A program made the translations under genes and the position numbers. From Cloacibacillus sp. (GTDB lineage Bacteria > Synergistota > Synergistia > Synergistales > Synergistaceae), in NCBI GenBank assembly GCA_036655895.1, contig JAVVPF010000019.1:1-59059 (forward strand): a DNA stretch of 59,059 nt, given 5' to 3'. Shown piece by piece: positions 49,211 to 59,059 of the stretch. The notes below the pieces were generated by a model. That model had not been told where the DNA came from. It made no database searches and saw only the letters and a list, made by a program, of their open reading frames with translations. The first letter of the stretch is position 1, and every line of letters starts with the position of its first letter.

Positions 49211-50551
49211 ATGGAAAAGAAGATAAGAGTAAGGTTCGCACCAAGCCCGACCGGCTCGCTTCACATCGGAGGCGCGCACACGGCGCTCTTCAACTGGCTG
49301 CTCGCGCGCCGCACAGGAGGCGTCTTTGTGCTGCGCATCGAAGACACCGACCTCGAACGCTCGACAAAAGAATACGAGCAGAGCATCTTAGACGGAATGC
49401 GCTGGATGGGGCTGGACTGGGACGAAGGCCCCGACAAGGGCGGCGAATACGGCCCGTATCGTCAGTCGGAGCGCATGCACCTTTACAAAAAATACGCGCA
49501 GCAGCTGCTTGACGAAGGCAAAGCCTACGAACATGACGGCGCCGTCTTCTACAAGATAGAGCCGGGCAAAAAACTGCACTTCCACGACGAGGTCTACGGC
49601 GACATCGACGTGCTCAGCGAAAACGCCTCCGTCAATCAGGACGGCACGATAAAGGACATCGTCATCATGAAGCGCGACGGGATGCCCACCTACAATTACG
49701 CCGTCGTCATCGACGACTACACGATGGGAATAAATATGGTCATCCGCGGCGAAGACCACGTCATCAACACGCCGAAGCAGCTGCTCATCTACGACGCTTT
49801 AGGCTTTGAGGCGCCCTCCTTCGCGCACCTTCCGATGATACTCGGCAAAGATAAAAAGAAGCTCTCAAAGCGTCAGGGCGCGACAAGCGTCTTTGAATAC
49901 AACGACATGGGCTACCTGCCCGACGGCGTATTCAACTTCCTGGCTCTGCTGGGCTGGTCGCCGCGCAGCGGGCAGGACATCTTTACTCGCGAAGAGGCGG
50001 TCGAACTCTTCGACATAAAGAACGTCACAAGAAAACCCGCCGTGCTTGACGTTGACAAGCTGAACCACCTCAATCAGGAGCAGATGAAGCGCATGGCGCC
50101 AGAAAAACTGCTTGAGGTGATACGCCCCTTCTGGGACAAGATGGGGCTGCCCGTCTGCGATTTTTCAGACGAATATCTCGCCTCGTCGCTTCAGACGATG
50201 GGAGGCCGCGGCCAAACTACCATACAGGTGGCGGAGTTCAGCGATTATTTCCTCGATTTCAGCCGCGTAACAGAGCGCTACGACGGCTCCGACATCAAAG
50301 AGGAGCTGCGCCCTAAGCTGCAAACGATCTACGGGCAGCTGCTTGAGGCGTGGGGCTGCGGCGAGTGCGGCCATCTGCACGAAGAGGCCGAAAGAATATT
50401 CGCCGCAAACGAAAGCTCTATGAAAGAGGCGGCGACGCCTCTGCGCTGGGCGCTGACCGGACGCAAGGTAAGCCCCGGCGTCTTTGAGGTGGCGGCGCAG
50501 CTTGGTAAAGAGGAGACAAAAAAGAGACTTACGCACTACGGCCTCATATAA
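49211..50551 (+). CDS. gltX: Glutamyl-tRNA synthetase
   Basis: A class I synthetase charging tRNA-Glu. HIGH-type motif is FAPSPTGSLHIGGAHTALFN; the KMSKS equivalent is KDKKKLSKRQGAT. The C-terminal anticodon region is short, total 446 residues. A GGGAGG site precedes the ATG. It lies divergent from polA and is followed after 12 bases by glutaminase. A separate GlnRS is also encoded, so this enzyme probably need not charge tRNA-Gln. Confidence 0.96.
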   Translation: MEKKIRVRFAPSPTGSLHIGGAHTALFNWLLARRTGGVFVLRIEDTDLERSTKEYEQSILDGMRWMGLDWDEGPDKGGEYGPYRQSERMHLYKKYAQQLLDEGKAYEHDGAVFYKIEPGKKLHFHDEVYGDIDVLSENASVNQDGTIKDIVIMKRDGMPTYNYAVVIDDYTMGINMVIRGEDHVINTPKQLLIYDALGFEAPSFAHLPMILGKDKKKLSKRQGATSVFEYNDMGYLPDGVFNFLALLGWSPRSGQDIFTREEAVELFDIKNVTRKPAVLDVDKLNHLNQEQMKRMAPEKLLEVIRPFWDKMGLPVCDFSDEYLASSLQTMGGRGQTTIQVAEFSDYFLDFSRVTERYDGSDIKEELRPKLQTIYGQLLEAWGCGECGHLHEEAERIFAANESSMKEAATPLRWALTGRKVSPGVFEVAAQLGKEETKKRLTHYGLI

Positions 50552-51605: not shown

Positions 51606-51875
51606 TCAGAACAGTTCAGAGTGACTACCGAGCCGTGTCAGTGTAAGACGTAATTCGTCGGGCTTTTCATATATCAACAGCCAGTCCGGCTCTAGATGAA
51701 GTTCCCTAAAACCTATCCTGCCGCCTTTGAGGTCATGGTCTTTATTTTTCTCTGGAATACACTCGTCGTTTAGGAGCAAAAAAATCATTTCATCAAGCTT
51801 ATCGGTATCTCTGCCCTGTCTGACGGCTCTGCGCAAATCTTTTTTATATTGGTTGGTGATGTCAAGCTCACGCAT
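51606..51875 (-). CDS. yafQ: YafQ/RelE family mRNA-interferase toxin
   Basis: An 89-residue ribosome-dependent endoribonuclease of the YafQ branch. The C-terminal half shows the expected catalytic residues: HDLKGGRIGFRELHLEPDWLLIY (two His, Asp-Trp) and the terminal GSHSELF His. The N-terminal YKKDLRRAVRQGRD matches the family helix. It is downstream of and overlaps the antitoxin gene by 8 bases. The active site is complete, so the toxin is presumably functional. Confidence 0.92.
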   Translation of the reverse strand: MRELDITNQYKKDLRRAVRQGRDTDKLDEMIFLLLNDECIPEKNKDHDLKGGRIGFRELHLEPDWLLIYEKPDELRLTLTRLGSHSELF

Positions 51876-52155
51876 GGCCGGGCTTGTCTATGCCTGATTT
51901 GGCATACATGTCCGCGATGGAGGCGCAGCGCGTCGCGCGTCCTTCTCTTGCCTCCCTCATAGCGGAGCGTGTCACTGCGTTCGGAGTGCATGGCACGCCT
52001 ATCTCAAAAGGCACGACGCCCTCCGCCGCGAATTTTACAAGAAACGCGTTTATGAGCGTCGAAAGCGGAATACCCGCTGCCTCCGCGTTTTCCATCGCCA
52101 GCCGTTTTGTGTCGTTCTTTACTCTAACTGTTATAACGGATGTTTCCGCTGCCAT
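51868..52155 (-). CDS. dinJ: DinJ/RelB family antitoxin
   Basis: A 95-residue antitoxin with an N-terminal ribbon-helix-helix DNA-binding region (TSVITVRVKNDTKRLAMENAE, GIPLSTLINAFLVKF). The C-terminal tail MYAKSGIDKPGHA would wrap the toxin. AGGAGGGG precedes the ATG. Such dimers repress their own operon; an AT-rich inverted repeat lies 33 bases upstream. Confidence 0.92.
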   Translation of the reverse strand: MAAETSVITVRVKNDTKRLAMENAEAAGIPLSTLINAFLVKFAAEGVVPFEIGVPCTPNAVTRSAMREAREGRATRCASIADMYAKSGIDKPGHA

Positions 52156-52325: not shown

Positions 52326-53993
52326 TTATTTCTTCTGTTCTTTCCCCCATGAATCTTTCAATGAGACTGTGAGGTTGAAGACGGGGCGTTCCGGCGTGGT
52401 TTCGCTGTCGGCGCAGAAATAGCCGTGGCGCAGGAACTGGAATTTATCAAGCGGGGCGGCTGCGGCAAGCGACGGTTCCACAAGCGCGTTTTCTATAACG
52501 ACCAGAGACTCTGGGTTCAGATAATCTTTATAGTCTTTGCCATCTTCCATGTCGTTCATATTGCGCAGGGTAAAGAGGCTGTCGTACATATTTATTTTCG
52601 CGGTCACTGCATCCTGCGCCCAGACCCAGTGCAGAGTGCCCTTTATTTTGCGTCCGTCCGGCGCGTCTCCGCCGCGGCTTTCCATGTCCACGGTGCAGCG
52701 CAGCTCTGTTACGCCTCCTTCTGCGTCTTTTACGACCTCTTCGCATTTGATGATGTAGGCGTGTTTGAGGCGCACCTCTTTGCCGGGCGACATGCGAAAG
52801 AAGCCCTTCACCGGCTCTTCCATGAAGTCTGTCGCTTCGATGTATATCTCTTTTCCCATCTTCACGGTACGGCTTCCGGCCGCTTCGTCCTCTGGGTTGT
52901 TCTCCGCGGGCAGCTCGTCTACGAAGCCTTCGGGCCAATTCGTCAACGTCACCTTAAGGGGCCTTAGCACGGCCATCCCGCGTTTTGCGGTTTTGTTGAG
53001 CTCTTCGCGCAGGCAGTGCTGCAGCAGCTCCACTTCGACCAGACTGTCGGCCTTTGAGACGCCTATCTCGCGGCAGAATCTGCGAATTGAAGAGGCTGTG
53101 TAGCCGCGTCTGCGGAAACCGCTTATCGTGGGCATCCTCGGGTCGTCCCAGCCGTTTACGATGCCAAGCTCGACTAGCTCGTGAAGCTTGCGCTTGCTCA
53201 TGACTGTGTAGGTGATGTTGAGGCGCGCGAATTCATACTGGTGCGGCACGTGCGGCGCGTCGACGCTTGCGATGAACCAGTCGTAGAGCGGGCGGTGGTC
53301 CTGAAATTCCAGCGTGCAGATAGAGTGCGTGACGCCCTCTATAGCGTCCTCAAAACCGTGAGCGAAGTCGTACATAGGATAGACGAGCCATTTTGCGCCC
53401 GTTCTGTGGTGTTCGCGCTTCAATATGCGGTAGATGACTGGGTCGCGCAGATTAAGATTATTGCTTGCCATGTCAATTTTCGCACGCAGCACGTGGCTTC
53501 CCTCTTCAAATTCGCCGGCTGTCATTTTAGCGAATAGCTCGAGGTTTTCCTCAGGAGTGCGCTCTCTGTAAGGAGAGTCGGCGCCGGGCTTCGTAAGCGT
53601 GCCGCGATTTTCGCGTATCTGCTCCGCGCTCTGATCGTCGACGTAGGCTTTGCCCGCCCTGATAAGGTCCAGCGCCCATTTGTAGAACTGGTCGAAATAG
53701 TCGGAGGCGTAGCGCAGTTCAGACCACTCAAAACCAAGCCATTTGACGTCGTTCTCTATCGAGTTTACATACTCCGTCTCTTCTTTTGCCGGGTTCGTGT
53801 CGTCAAAACGAAGGTTGCACCTGCCGCCGAACTCATTCGCCATGCCAAAGTTGAGGCAGATGGATTTTGCGTGCCCGATATGGAGGTAGCCGTTCGGCTC
53901 GGGCGGAAATCTGGTCACGACCTCTTTTACGACTCCGTTTTTGATGTCCTCCGCGATTATGTCACTGATAAAATTTCTGTTTTCTGACGCCAT
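52326..53993 (-). CDS. glnS: Glutaminyl-tRNA synthetase
   Basis: A class I enzyme charging tRNA-Gln directly. The signature PPEPNGYLHIGHAKSI and the KMSKS-like VMSKRKL are present, with two C-terminal beta-barrel anticodon domains (RLKHAYIIKCEEV region). The length of 555 residues matches the E. coli type. GGAGG lies 7 bases before the ATG. Many bacteria lack GlnRS and use amidotransfer instead; its presence with gltX and a tRNA-Gln in the same window is notable. Confidence 0.96.
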   Translation of the reverse strand: MASENRNFISDIIAEDIKNGVVKEVVTRFPPEPNGYLHIGHAKSICLNFGMANEFGGRCNLRFDDTNPAKEETEYVNSIENDVKWLGFEWSELRYASDYFDQFYKWALDLIRAGKAYVDDQSAEQIRENRGTLTKPGADSPYRERTPEENLELFAKMTAGEFEEGSHVLRAKIDMASNNLNLRDPVIYRILKREHHRTGAKWLVYPMYDFAHGFEDAIEGVTHSICTLEFQDHRPLYDWFIASVDAPHVPHQYEFARLNITYTVMSKRKLHELVELGIVNGWDDPRMPTISGFRRRGYTASSIRRFCREIGVSKADSLVEVELLQHCLREELNKTAKRGMAVLRPLKVTLTNWPEGFVDELPAENNPEDEAAGSRTVKMGKEIYIEATDFMEEPVKGFFRMSPGKEVRLKHAYIIKCEEVVKDAEGGVTELRCTVDMESRGGDAPDGRKIKGTLHWVWAQDAVTAKINMYDSLFTLRNMNDMEDGKDYKDYLNPESLVVIENALVEPSLAAAAPLDKFQFLRHGYFCADSETTPERPVFNLTVSLKDSWGKEQKK

Positions 53994-54014: not shown

Positions 54015-54995
54015 TTAAAATTTTTCAAGATATAATTCCAAAACTTTTTCGGGAGCGGACGGTTCCGCCGCTAATGCAAGATATGATAATGCAATGAGGA
54101 ACTCAAGGGAATAGCTCCCTTGACTAAAAACTGTGAAATTTTTTGCGGCAAGCCCCGCTATACCCACGCCGGCGTAAAGGCCGGGCGCTTTTGCCCCGTG
54201 GACGCAGGAGCTTGCCGCGATGACAACGGGCTTTTGCGCGGCATAGGCCGCGGCAAACGCTTCATGGAGGCGCTGCGGCATGTTGCCGGCGCCGTAGCCC
54301 TCAAGCAGCACTATCTTAGACGCGCCGTCAAAGCGGGGCGCGACGCCGGGGTAAACGTGCAAAAGAAGAAGCTCCTCGGAAGGGACCGAGCCGACTTTTG
54401 CCGCGGCATCAAGCAGAGAGCGCGGCGCTTCAGGAAGGGCGCGCGCGCCGCAGCTCTGCGTGTAGGCGTCAAGCTCCGACGAATTTTCCTTATGCACATA
54501 GGGGGCGCGGAAGTTTTTTCCGGCGAAATGGATGAATACGCCTTCATCTATCGAACATAGCAGCTCCGCCGCGCCGCGCAGATTTGAGTCGCCGTCAAAA
54601 TCAGAAGCCTCGGGCGTCCTCTGGCTCCCTGTGAGCACCACCGCGGCGCCGGGCGCGGCAAGCGCGAGCCACGCCGCCGTGAAGGCCATCGTGTCCGTGC
54701 CGTGAATGACAAGTATTTTTTTTACGCCGTGCGCCGCCGCGTCGTTTATCTTTGCGGAAATGGCGGCCCATTCTTTTGGCCCAATATCCGAACTGTCGCG
54801 GCCCGCCTCGCCGAAGATGAAATCCGTACAGCAGCGAAGGCCGCGCGCCGCAAAACAGGCCGCGGCGCTTCCAAGCACCGCGTGCGCGGCGGCGGCGTCC
54901 GGTTCTGCGCCAAAACCATGATCGACAGAGACTATGGTGCCTCCGGTTGAGATAACTAGGACTTCACCTTCCGCGTTTGCTTTTATATTTTTCAT
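54015..54995 (-). CDS. ansA: L-asparaginase
   Basis: It hydrolyses asparagine to aspartate and ammonia. The two Thr sites are visible: LVISTGGTIVSVDHG near the N-terminus and LVIHGTDTMAFTAAW with the Thr-Lys-Asp-type second motif around residue 100. ATG 54995 gives 326 residues beginning MKNIKANAEGEVLVISTGG. An in-frame ATG at 55046 would place 17 residues inside the upstream gene. No Shine-Dalgarno sequence is close, so it is probably translated by coupling 14 bases after the NuoH-like stop. No signal peptide is seen, suggesting a cytosolic enzyme. Confidence 0.92.
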   Translation of the reverse strand: MKNIKANAEGEVLVISTGGTIVSVDHGFGAEPDAAAAHAVLGSAAACFAARGLRCCTDFIFGEAGRDSSDIGPKEWAAISAKINDAAAHGVKKILVIHGTDTMAFTAAWLALAAPGAAVVLTGSQRTPEASDFDGDSNLRGAAELLCSIDEGVFIHFAGKNFRAPYVHKENSSELDAYTQSCGARALPEAPRSLLDAAAKVGSVPSEELLLLHVYPGVAPRFDGASKIVLLEGYGAGNMPQRLHEAFAAAYAAQKPVVIAASSCVHGAKAPGLYAGVGIAGLAAKNFTVFSQGSYSLEFLIALSYLALAAEPSAPEKVLELYLEKF

Positions 54996-55009: not shown

Positions 55010-56029
55010 TTAAAAGGCCGCAGCCTCCTGTGAAAGCAGAATACATTCATAATAGAGCAGAAGCATGGCGCAGGCTGTAAACGCGGTAACGAGGAAGGTC
55101 TCGCGCAGCGGCTTGGGCAGCCGCGCCTTGAGCAGATCCAGCAAAAGCCAGCAGACCGGCACGGCGACGGTCCTCATAATCACCACTGAGAACCAGAAGA
55201 TGACGAAGTTCAGCGCCTGACTGCGCCATGAGATGCCGACGGCGTTATTGATGGTGGCTATGAAGTTAGAGGGGAAAAACATATAGGTGACGAGCGCCAC
55301 GATGATGAACGAACGAAAGACCGCCCATACCTGAAGTATGCCGCGCGGCGCGCCTGTGTACTCAGGAATCTCTCCCTGTTTCAGCAGAGCGCAGCCCGTC
55401 ATGAAGTCCCTGTGAGGTATCTGGCTCAAAATAGTGAAGATAAAAAGAGCCGTTCCGCAGACGCCCCATCTGGACATTGCCGTAAGCTGTCCCGCGATGG
55501 AAAAGGAGTTGAGGCTGAACGGGTCGCTGTCCAGACCGTTTTTTATAAGAAAGGCCGCGAGAGAGGCAAAACAGGCAGCTACCGGTACGGCAAGCCGGAT
55601 CACCTTGCCCATTTCGATACGCGCCGCATTCTCAGCCTGTTTTGTGCCAAGCGCATAGAGCGAGATCAAGGCCAAGACCTCCGAAAGCAGCATAAACTGC
55701 AATATCTGTATGACATCGGCGCCGTTGTCGATTATCGGGATGAAGGTGCTGAACGGGATGCTGGCGCAGACCGTCATCAGCGCGGCAAAGGCAAGCGCGG
55801 GGCCGTACAGCGCGATATTGACGGAGGCGCTCTCAGGAAGGCCGACCTCAAGGCGGAAAGCTCCGCGAACATTTTTGATAAGCGGCACGCCCACCTCGCG
55901 CAGCGTTTTGCGTGAGATTATCACCGTAAAAATTATATATATCTTTTCCGCAGCTACCGCCGCCGCCAGCACGAAGCCCATCAGCAGCCATGCGTTGAAG
56001 TATTTAAAAAACGCCCAAATATATTCCAT
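55010..56029 (-). CDS. NuoH/HycD-like membrane subunit (complex I type)
   Basis: A 339-residue protein with about eight membrane helices. It resembles subunit H/HycD of complex I and group 4 hydrogenases: FAALMTVCASIPFSTFIP, LSEVLALISLYALGTKQAE and the loop QGEIPEYTGAPRGILQVW. The loop keeps the EYTG core, but most of the acidic residues of the canonical quinone-site loop are absent. It follows the 101-residue gene by 6 bases and precedes ansA. No hydrogenase or NADH-dehydrogenase catalytic subunit is nearby. The family assignment is fairly sure; function is not. Confidence 0.75.
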   Translation of the reverse strand: MEYIWAFFKYFNAWLLMGFVLAAAVAAEKIYIIFTVIISRKTLREVGVPLIKNVRGAFRLEVGLPESASVNIALYGPALAFAALMTVCASIPFSTFIPIIDNGADVIQILQFMLLSEVLALISLYALGTKQAENAARIEMGKVIRLAVPVAACFASLAAFLIKNGLDSDPFSLNSFSIAGQLTAMSRWGVCGTALFIFTILSQIPHRDFMTGCALLKQGEIPEYTGAPRGILQVWAVFRSFIIVALVTYMFFPSNFIATINNAVGISWRSQALNFVIFWFSVVIMRTVAVPVCWLLLDLLKARLPKPLRETFLVTAFTACAMLLLYYECILLSQEAAAF

Positions 56030-56035
56030 ATCATC

Positions 56036-56341
56036 TCACCTTAAAAATATAGCGGCGGCAAAAAACAGAACGAGCGCCGCCAGACAAATCAACCCGCACG
56101 CCGGCATTTCGGCCCACGGTTCCACAGTAAGTTTTGTTATCGCCGCGGCGAAGCGTTCGATGTCGAAAACGCCGGAATACTCCATTTTCCTCGCCCTCTC
56201 CTCGCGCACCAGCCGGCCGCCGTGCACACGGACGGCCGCGCTGACAAAAAACCCTAAGATTATCGCGGCGAGCAGAAAAACAGAAAGCCATTTATATACG
56301 TCCCATATAAAAAATCCAGTAGCTATCCTAAACAGTATCAT
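56036..56341 (-). CDS. Small two-helix membrane protein of unknown function
   Basis: A 101-residue protein, not recognised. A first helix (about residues 17-36) is followed by a basic, charged loop (HGGRLVREERARKMEYSG) and a second helix near the C-terminus (about 80-100). Its start overlaps the stop of the antiporter-like gene by four bases (ATGA), and the NuoH-like gene follows by 6 bases, so it is surely part of the same operon. It could be an accessory subunit of that membrane complex. Confidence 0.75.
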   Translation of the reverse strand: MILFRIATGFFIWDVYKWLSVFLLAAIILGFFVSAAVRVHGGRLVREERARKMEYSGVFDIERFAAAITKLTVEPWAEMPACGLICLAALVLFFAAAIFLR

Positions 56342-57939
56342 TTCACAGAGGCCTCCGCGGCGCCAGACGAATCAGGCGCGGTTCTGTTGATAAGCGCCTC
56401 CACGGACGGCGCGACCGACTCCTCATAGAGCGCCCCGGGAAGCATCGTAGCGCCCACAAACAGCGTAAGGAGCAGTATAAGCGGAAGAGCTATCGTAGCC
56501 TCGCCGCTGAAGACAAATTCCGAGCCAGGAGAGCGCCCGCCCGTCATCAGCGAAACGAGAAAACGAAGAGAGGTCAGCAGCATCAGCACGGTGAAAATGA
56601 AGAGAAATACAAAAACAAGCGGGTTTATGAAATTAGCGGAGCGAAAGAGGAGCTGCTTTCCGCTGTACCCGATAAACGGCGGCAGGCCGCTCACCATCGC
56701 CGCAAGCAAAAAGAGCGTCACCGCCACCATAGGCGCGCGGTCAAGCAAAGCGCCTCCGCGCCACATCTCAACTCCGCCGCCCTCCTGTTTCAGATATACC
56801 GTGATTACGGCAAGCGCCGCAGTTATCGGCAGGAATACGAGCCACAGCAAAATCATCCCCTCAAGCGCGCTCACGCCGTAAAGCGCCGCACGCTCCGCGC
56901 CGAAGACGCCGTGCATCGCGATACCTATCGCCGCGAGCACCATCCCCTTCATATACATGACGACTGAATTCATGAAAGCGGCGGGGTCCTTCACCGCGCA
57001 TGAAAGGAAAACGGCCAGCAGAATTAGAGCGAAGCCAAGCATGATAAAAAGATACGGCACCTTTTGCAGCCCGTCCATTGGACCATAGATAGAAAAAATT
57101 ATCCGAAAGACGACGAAGAGCGACGCCTGCGTCCTTATGCCGAAAAAGCAGTTGCGCGACGCGTCAGGAAGGTACGGAGACGGTTTTATGAAAAGATAGA
57201 GCATAGGCGCCGCAAGCAGGATGAAGGCCGCAAGCGACGGGCCGGATGAGACGATGCGTGAGGCGAGCACGTTGATATTGTCCGTTCCGTATTCAAATTT
57301 TAAAGTGAGCACGCCGGCAAAAAACATGACAAGCATCGTCACGCGCGAAATGTAATAATAGACTGACTCTCCGCCAGGTTTTTTCTTCGTCTCAAAATTA
57401 CTGTAGAGCCCCGTCACGCCGAACTGTGTAAGCGCCATAAAGAGCGTCAGCAGGTAAAGGCCGTTGGAGTAAAAAATACCCTGGATGCCGGTGCAGGTGA
57501 AAAGAAAAAAGGCCGTCTTGCGCGGTGTGATTATATTTTTTTTATCAGCGAGCGCGCAGATGCCGGCCGTGAGCGCCACGAAATTCATGAGCGCGGCGGA
57601 GACCGCGGAAAAAGGATCTATCCTGAAAACGGTAAGCAGGTTCGCTGCCGCCTCGCCGCTGAGCGCCGTCGTCCATCCGCGCGCCGTAAGCACATAGATC
57701 GGAGCGGACGGCCCCGTGACGCGGCTCCATATAATATACGAAAAAATCACATCGAGCACTAAAAGCGCAAGGAACGGCAGTTTGTAGACCACCTTCGGCA
57801 AAACCAGCGCGTGGCCGAAACGCCTTGACAAAAACCGGTTGTATAGAAGCAGACCGCTGCAAAGCATAGCTCCGATAAACGGAAAAAGCAGCGTCAAAAA
57901 CGGCAGAGGCATAGATTCAAAGAGGAACGCAAATCGCAT
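56338..57939 (-). CDS. NuoN/MrpD-like proton/cation antiporter-type subunit
   Basis: A 533-residue protein with about 14 membrane helices of the proton-conducting NuoL/M/N and Mrp family: FRIDPFSAVSAALMNFVALTAG, FIKPSPYLPDASRN (equivalent of the Lys plus PFHxWLPDA region) and SGLPPFIGYSGKQLLF (conserved Lys helix). The usual helix-5 glutamate (FxWE) is replaced in LLTLFMALTQFGV. It is first in a four-gene operon with the two-helix protein, the NuoH-like protein and ansA. Ion specificity and partner enzyme are unknown. Confidence 0.8.
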   Translation of the reverse strand: MRFAFLFESMPLPFLTLLFPFIGAMLCSGLLLYNRFLSRRFGHALVLPKVVYKLPFLALLVLDVIFSYIIWSRVTGPSAPIYVLTARGWTTALSGEAAANLLTVFRIDPFSAVSAALMNFVALTAGICALADKKNIITPRKTAFFLFTCTGIQGIFYSNGLYLLTLFMALTQFGVTGLYSNFETKKKPGGESVYYYISRVTMLVMFFAGVLTLKFEYGTDNINVLASRIVSSGPSLAAFILLAAPMLYLFIKPSPYLPDASRNCFFGIRTQASLFVVFRIIFSIYGPMDGLQKVPYLFIMLGFALILLAVFLSCAVKDPAAFMNSVVMYMKGMVLAAIGIAMHGVFGAERAALYGVSALEGMILLWLVFLPITAALAVITVYLKQEGGGVEMWRGGALLDRAPMVAVTLFLLAAMVSGLPPFIGYSGKQLLFRSANFINPLVFVFLFIFTVLMLLTSLRFLVSLMTGGRSPGSEFVFSGEATIALPLILLLTLFVGATMLPGALYEESVAPSVEALINRTAPDSSGAAEASVK

Positions 57940-58143: not shown

Positions 58144-59059
58144 ATGTCAGACAGAAAAATGTCGCTCATGACAAAAATCGGAATCGGATTTATCACCGGG
58201 TTGATTTTAGGCTTCATCATAGGACCCATGGCCTCGAGCTCCAGCATCCTGACAAACGTCGTATTGCCGGTGCTCGAACTTATCGGAAACATCTTCCTCT
58301 CCTTCCTGAAGATGCTCATCGTTCCGCTCGTATTCTCAAGCATCATCATGGGAGCCTCCTCCATAGGGGACCCCAAAGTGCTTGGGCGCATCGGCCTTAA
58401 GACCGTCGCGCTCTACCTCAGCACAACTGTCGTCGCCATAATCATCGGCCTCATACTGGGCAACATCATCCAGCCCGGGCAGGGGATGGCCATTGAAGGC
58501 GTAAAAGCGGCGACGAAAGAGGCTGAATCGATATTCAGCGTCATACTGAACATGATCCCGGCAAACCCGCTTATGGCGCTTGTAAACGGAACCATGCTGC
58601 AAGTGATAGTCTTTGCGCTCTTCCTCGGGGTAGCCGCGACGCTCATCGGAGAAAAAGGCAAAGCCTTCCTCTCCTTCAACGCCTCACTGGCCGAGGTGAT
58701 GTTCAAAGTGACGGCCATCGTAATGCGGATGGCCCCCTACGGCATATTCGCGCTCATCGCCGTCACTGCGGCGAAATACGGCCCATCCGTGCTCGCTCCG
58801 TTCGCAAAGGTGATTGTAGCCGTCTACCTGGGCTGCATACTGCAGATAGTCTTTGTATACTCGGGCCTTATCGCTACAGTAGTACGTAAAAGCCCGCTGT
58901 GGTTCTTCAAAGGAGTCCGTGAAGCTATGCTTGCGGCCTACGTCACAAGGACTAGCTCCGGCGTGCTGCCCATCTCTATGGCAAACGTCCAGAACAACCT
59001 TGGCGTAAGCGAAGACGTATCGTCATTCGTGCTGCCGCTCGGCGCCACCATCAACATGG
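58144..59059 (+). CDS. DAACS family dicarboxylate/amino-acid:cation symporter (truncated by window edge)
   Basis: The open frame runs from ATG 58144, with GGAGG 9 bases upstream, to the window end without a stop: 305 residues. Family features are LLPVLELIGNIFLSFLKMLIVPLVF-type helix 2 (MLIVPLVFSSIIMG), the hairpin RTSSGVLPISMANVQ and the LPLGATINM motif where the sequence ends. Members carry glutamate, aspartate, C4-dicarboxylates or Ser/Thr with Na+ or H+. The hairpin resembles acidic amino-acid carriers, which suits the nearby glutaminase and asparaginase genes, but the substrate is inferred. The C-terminal transport core is missing from the window. Confidence 0.92.
   Translation, partial: MSDRKMSLMTKIGIGFITGLILGFIIGPMASSSSILTNVVLPVLELIGNIFLSFLKMLIVPLVFSSIIMGASSIGDPKVLGRIGLKTVALYLSTTVVAIIIGLILGNIIQPGQGMAIEGVKAATKEAESIFSVILNMIPANPLMALVNGTMLQVIVFALFLGVAATLIGEKGKAFLSFNASLAEVMFKVTAIVMRMAPYGIFALIAVTAAKYGPSVLAPFAKVIVAVYLGCILQIVFVYSGLIATVVRKSPLWFFKGVREAMLAAYVTRTSSGVLPISMANVQNNLGVSEDVSSFVLPLGATINM

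Follow-up and report, generated by a model that had tools for sequence, protein, structure and literature searches.

The evolution of complex I is usually told as the joining of modules. NuoL-like proteins also work outside it, the precedent being the DabA–DabB system of inorganic carbon uptake, where such a protein is part of a non-redox complex. DabB is not known to have a NuoH or an MbhI partner, and this system was rejected as a model for the locus described here, as DabA (PF10070) is absent from the genome in question.

The closest described system is the Mbh-type [NiFe] hydrogenase of Pyrococcus furiosus (PDB 6CFW), which has the same H, I and M subunits, likewise arranged H-I-(...)-M. 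Two of the three links between arm and membrane in Mbh and MBS are made by the TM1–2 loop of MbhI and the TM5–6 loop of MbhM (PMC7684303, PMC11228991). The Mrp Na+/H+ antiporter (6Z16, 7QRU) has an MrpD subunit homologous to H and works without a redox arm; it comprises seven subunits, none of them NuoH-like. A glutamate in TM5 and lysines in TM7 and TM11 are key or essential residues in Mrp (PMC7419157). Complete Mbh operons with homologous subunits are also found within the Synergistota (loci L035–L038 and L044), and these have the full gene set and all the cysteines of the NiFe site.

The window, by which we mean the whole 59,059-nucleotide stretch of Cloacibacillus DNA analysed, contains the following genes.

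56338–57939, minus strand: H, MbhH/MrpD/NuoN-like subunit, 533 aa, about 14 TM helices
56036–56341, minus strand: I, MbhI-like two-helix protein, 101 aa
55010–56029, minus strand: M, MbhM/NuoH-like subunit, 339 aa, about 8 TM helices
54015–54995, minus strand: asparaginase, next in the operon after M (PF00710, E 5e-31)
52326–53993, minus strand: glnS, downstream of the asparaginase gene
49211–50551, plus strand: gltX, a landmark found beside the complete Mbh operon of relatives
58144–59058, plus strand: SDF-family glutamate/aspartate symporter, the nearest divergent gene to H, running off the window

The initial annotation described three tightly packed genes for a NuoN/MrpD-like, a two-helix and a NuoH-like protein, followed by asparaginase as the fourth gene of the operon. 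The reading frames of H, I and M are all intact at these coordinates, and both the family assignments and the asparaginase hold. The H and I genes overlap by ATGA, and I is separated from M by 6 nt. The asparaginase reading frame runs to 55046, with its probable start at 54995. The symporter beside H is a conserved neighbour in many relatives. Scans for promoters and terminators gave signals no better than those of shuffled sequences. Elsewhere in the window (51606–52155, minus strand) two overlapping small reading frames look, by eye, like a RelB/DinJ antitoxin and a YafQ/RelE-type toxin.

The Pfam models PF00146 (NuoH) and PF00361 (Proton_antipo_M) do not match the H, I or M proteins. Taken alone this would imply that they are neither NuoH- nor NuoL-like, a reading that is overturned by pairwise and profile comparison. 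The placement in the NuoH and NuoL/M/N families proposed earlier thus fails with the Pfam models and stands with other profile, pairwise and fold comparisons, on which our assignment is based. In pairwise phmmer comparison with the subunits of complete operons from the same phylum, H gives 5e-23, M gives 5e-17 and I gives 1e-4. Against NCBIfam models H matches PRK08376 at 1e-29, yet far under the cut-off, and I matches MbhI weakly, at 0.07 and below cut-off; the H and I of the complete operon exceed the cut-offs of the same two models. Alignment of the orphan M (that is, M from loci having H-I-M only) with the full M by hhalign has a probability of 99.2 and an E-value of 9e-20. Searched against the PDB, the best matches of the orphan profiles are 6cfw_H (MbhH, 4e-26) for H and 6cfw_M (MbhM, 9e-13) for M. 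The 6CFW chains are also among the best matches by fold. AlphaFold models of moderate confidence superimpose on 6cfw_H with a TM-score of 0.71–0.75 for H (mean pLDDT 65) and on 6cfw_M with 0.66–0.70 for M (mean pLDDT 67.7). The H model matches MrpD, MbhH and NuoN chains by fold, and the M model has the eight-helix NuoH fold, the 50 Foldseek matches listed being NuoH/ND1/MbhM-type chains. All three of the MbhH, MbhI and MbhM subunits of the Mbh-type [NiFe] hydrogenase are represented. Within the complex I family the three proteins fall into the Mbh branch, with I placed least securely. On these comparisons the two-helix protein of the initial annotation appears as an MbhI homologue, and the module as the H-I-M of Mbh specifically.

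In other families of the phylum the complete operon is present, with H, I, J, K, L, M and N together with Mrp-like genes. It matches PF00146 (1e-65) and PF00361 (4e-51), and its L subunit carries all four cysteines of the NiFe site in both CxxC motifs (CGIC...DPCISC). At four loci (L035, L036, L037 and L038) the complete operon F-G-H-I-J-K-L-M-N directly adjoins gltX-polA-SurA. One of these, L036, is from a genome in the same family as the window (G124) and has an asparaginase gene between N and gltX. The order with the complete operon is SurA-polA-gltX, asparaginase-N-M-L-K-J-I-H-G-F. Where the contig allows, the orphan loci read polA-gltX-(glsA)-glnS-(asparaginase)-M-I-H-gltP, and in some genomes SurA is found on the same side of the module as H. 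The glnS gene lies next to H-I-M(-asparaginase) in all 23 of the orphan loci with enough contig, and asparaginase is missing from several. The simplest reading is loss in place of A–G and of J, K, L and N, with glnS inserted beside gltX. The initial annotation had missed this connection: from synteny and homology, the module appears to be a relic of a complete Mbh-type [NiFe] hydrogenase operon at its ancestral locus beside gltX. Rather than a split operon, what remains would be an eroded Mbh remnant; the complete operon occupies the same locus in relatives.

The orphan M is about 25% identical to the full M, and the complete-form M subunits compared are 49–63% identical to that of L037. In trees the orphans and the complete forms lie on separate, long and well supported branches. 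The trees neither contradict descent from the complete operon nor independently prove it; the case for derivation from this particular operon is therefore one of synteny, not of nesting within the tree.

The genome of the window (2.9 Mb, 99.28% complete) was searched for the arm through NuoB, NuoC, NuoD and the NiFe subunit, corresponding to J, K and L. For the NuoI-like N a match would say little, since 4Fe-4S ferredoxin domains are so widespread. No match to PF00346 (NuoD), PF01058 (NuoB), PF00329 (NuoC) or PF00374 (NiFe) was found in the genome, either adjacent to the module or elsewhere, and so the missing arm reported earlier extends from the locus to the whole genome. PF00361 and PF00146 likewise match nothing anywhere in it. 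The genome-wide search for the Mrp module covered MrpB alone (PF04039) and found no match; the orphan loci contain no homologue of F or G and no MrpB/C-like gene.

The module is conserved among relatives. In the family of the window, whose named members are Synergistaceae, 53 genomes were compared and M orthologues were found in 24, in the arrangement H-I-M(-asparaginase)-glnS. This bears out the earlier description of an orphan complex-I-like membrane module lacking a catalytic arm, and shows the three-gene set to be a feature of the family. The other 23 M orthologues are 29–61% identical to M of the window, and none has an internal stop. NuoB and NuoD are absent from all 24 genomes with H-I-M only, including two that are single contigs (G137 and G138). 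PF00346 and PF01058 match only G124 in the family, the sole member with NuoB, NuoD and the complete operon. Neither form is present in the other 28 genomes, some of which are incomplete. A search for related loci using the H alignment found only Synergistaceae and close named relatives, though with two 9-residue patterns such a search tests restriction only weakly. H and I form a single fused protein in two genomes (G127 and G128) that belong to one genus (L046:2560-4569 and L047:6752-8659), which argues that H and I still work together.

Residues and loops were compared between 18 orphan and five complete sequences, the I loop being scored in 15 orphans; helices of H are numbered from its AlphaFold model. 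The acidic TM5–6 loop of M (PMDIPEAKTEILEG) is broken in all 18 orphans by deletion or replacement. D211 is gapped in every one and E214 in 17, and E218 is always replaced. The glutamate of the SYE motif of M is also gone from all 18. D105 of M (D102 in the complete form) is kept in all of them. In 15/15 orphans the TM1–2 loop of I lacks about 11 residues relative to complete Mbh. The charge set of Mrp/NuoN-type subunits (TM5 Glu, TM7 Lys, TM11 Lys/His and TM12 Lys) is incomplete in the orphan H. The TM5 glutamate and the TM11 lysine are each found in 0/18, and the TM7 lysine falls within an 8-residue gap in 18/18, a result that depends on the alignment; it is deleted or shifted, with a conserved lysine (K252) close by. 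The lost positions of H are central to proton movement in the Mrp and MBS studies (PMC7419157, PMC7684303). A lysine or arginine is retained in TM12 in 16 of the 18, including K428 of the window. New charges have become strictly or highly conserved in H, namely R199, K252, K331 and R433. In all five complete Synergistota operons (L035–L038 and L044) the TM8 lysine of other family members is glutamine, with the NiFe site intact.

The genes remain under purifying constraint. In informative close pairs dN/dS (Nei–Gojobori) is 0.09–0.13 for H, 0.14–0.20 for I and 0.11–0.16 for M, with 0.05–0.07 for glnS as comparison. Invariant residues persist among orphans across 27–64% identity. H, I and M are still selected as one unit, as shown by the overlapping or abutting genes, by dN/dS of about 0.1–0.2 and by the H–I fusion in one genus.

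Taken together, an Mbh-type origin, the loss of the arm and continued function of H-I-M are probable. The module would be the surviving membrane core of a group 4, Mrp-linked Mbh-type [NiFe] hydrogenase that once lay beside gltX. Synteny, homology and genome-wide absence indicate that the Mrp-like subunits A–G and the whole arm J, K, L and N would have been lost in the lineage of the window. H, I and M would have been retained, diverging fast in the arm-free state, and I would still strap H to M as MbhI does. Compared with Mbh, H-I-M is without J, K, L and N and without A–G, the arm-facing loops of I and M are shortened, and the pump charges of H are lost. By descent it would be Mbh, with neither the hydrogenase hallmarks (arm and NiFe site) nor the charge set of an antiporter. 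The likeliest reading is a working membrane complex of three subunits with no redox input.

Decay to a remnant with no function is hardly credible. The parent operon has indeed lost most of its genes and 28 family genomes have neither form, but the absence of internal stops among family M orthologues, the invariant residues and above all the dN/dS values in close pairs (0.09–0.20), on which this reading was rejected, all point to function. A membrane part served by a redox arm from another locus, whether its genes are known or unrecognised, is equally hard to credit. Such arms are usually anchored by MbhM/NuoH and the overall fold of M is kept, but homologues of NuoB, NuoC, NuoD and the NiFe subunit are absent from the genome, NuoB and NuoD are absent from the H-I-M-only relatives, and the arm-facing loops of M and I are shortened or lost in all orphans. 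The earlier suggestion of an enzyme encoded elsewhere is not supported by these observations. Loss of the arm-docking loops and of most of the proton-relay charges makes a redox-driven pump very unlikely and a standard Na+/H+ antiporter unlikely. A canonical role as a minimal cation/H+ antiporter, in which M adds a half-channel to an MrpD-like base, would agree with the MrpD/MbhH fold of H and with its TM12 Lys/Arg. It is nevertheless improbable in view of the missing TM5 Glu and TM11 Lys, the deleted or shifted TM7 Lys and the absence of MrpB from the genome and of MrpB/C-like genes from orphan loci, the lost residues being key or essential in Mrp (PMC7419157). The stand-alone antiporter of the initial annotation is weakened by these losses.

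Our leading guess, held tentatively, is ion conduction or exchange without redox input along a rebuilt path. This path would use R199, K252, K331, R433 and the retained K428 of H together with D105 of M, though the newly conserved charges of H could be structural instead. Ranked second, and rather doubtful, is recruitment to amino-acid metabolism, with H-I-M as a partner, channel or sensor for the uptake and deamidation of glutamate, aspartate and asparagine. The conserved neighbours (glnS, asparaginase, gltP, gltX and glsA) would fit such a role, and the basic residues R199, K331 and R433 would suit an anion. However, several orphan loci have no asparaginase, and gltX and asparaginase already adjoined the complete hydrogenase operon (L036), so that the linkage may in part be historical. 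It is conceivable, and we lean only a little away from it, that a redox enzyme from the complex I superfamily lost its arm and its Na+ module and so became a free-standing H-I-M machine with a new, non-redox function, namely altered conduction of ions or small anions, possibly linked to glutamate or asparagine metabolism.

H-I-M provides a clear case of the reverse of module joining, with intact hydrogenase operons and a stripped remnant at the same locus in related families. It is a natural experiment in which NuoH- and NuoN-like residues that serve the arm or pump may be distinguished from those that keep the membrane subunits assembled. As a minimal three-subunit complex it could also be purified and tested. 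The open-access papers searched contain no account of an Mbh remnant that has lost its arm, which does not prove novelty, as subscription papers lay outside the search.

The genome of the window also contains an RnfC homologue (G000:C5:360-656). In lineages without the hydrogenase, ferredoxin-driven pumping of ions may have passed to Rnf. Nearly all relatives have RnfC whether or not they carry Mbh, so that RnfC alone does not explain the loss.

A second arm-less NuoH homologue, B (303–308 aa), is found elsewhere in the genome of the window, at L031:8464-9390 (G000:C13:66466-67380), and in relatives at L032:8625-9542 and L039:8716-9627. It has no PF00146 match and has lost the TM5–6 loop. B is closer to the complete-operon M (1e-13 to 1e-32, and in the tree), and could represent an independent instance of this kind of arm loss. 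It is present in 20 genomes of the family, comprising 19 of the 24 with H-I-M and one of the 28 with neither form, a co-occurrence that could be explained by shared ancestry of the genomes. B adjoins a TAXI-type TRAP transporter and is close to an acyl-CoA-ligase-like gene; at L032 it is also beside a DUF1850 gene.
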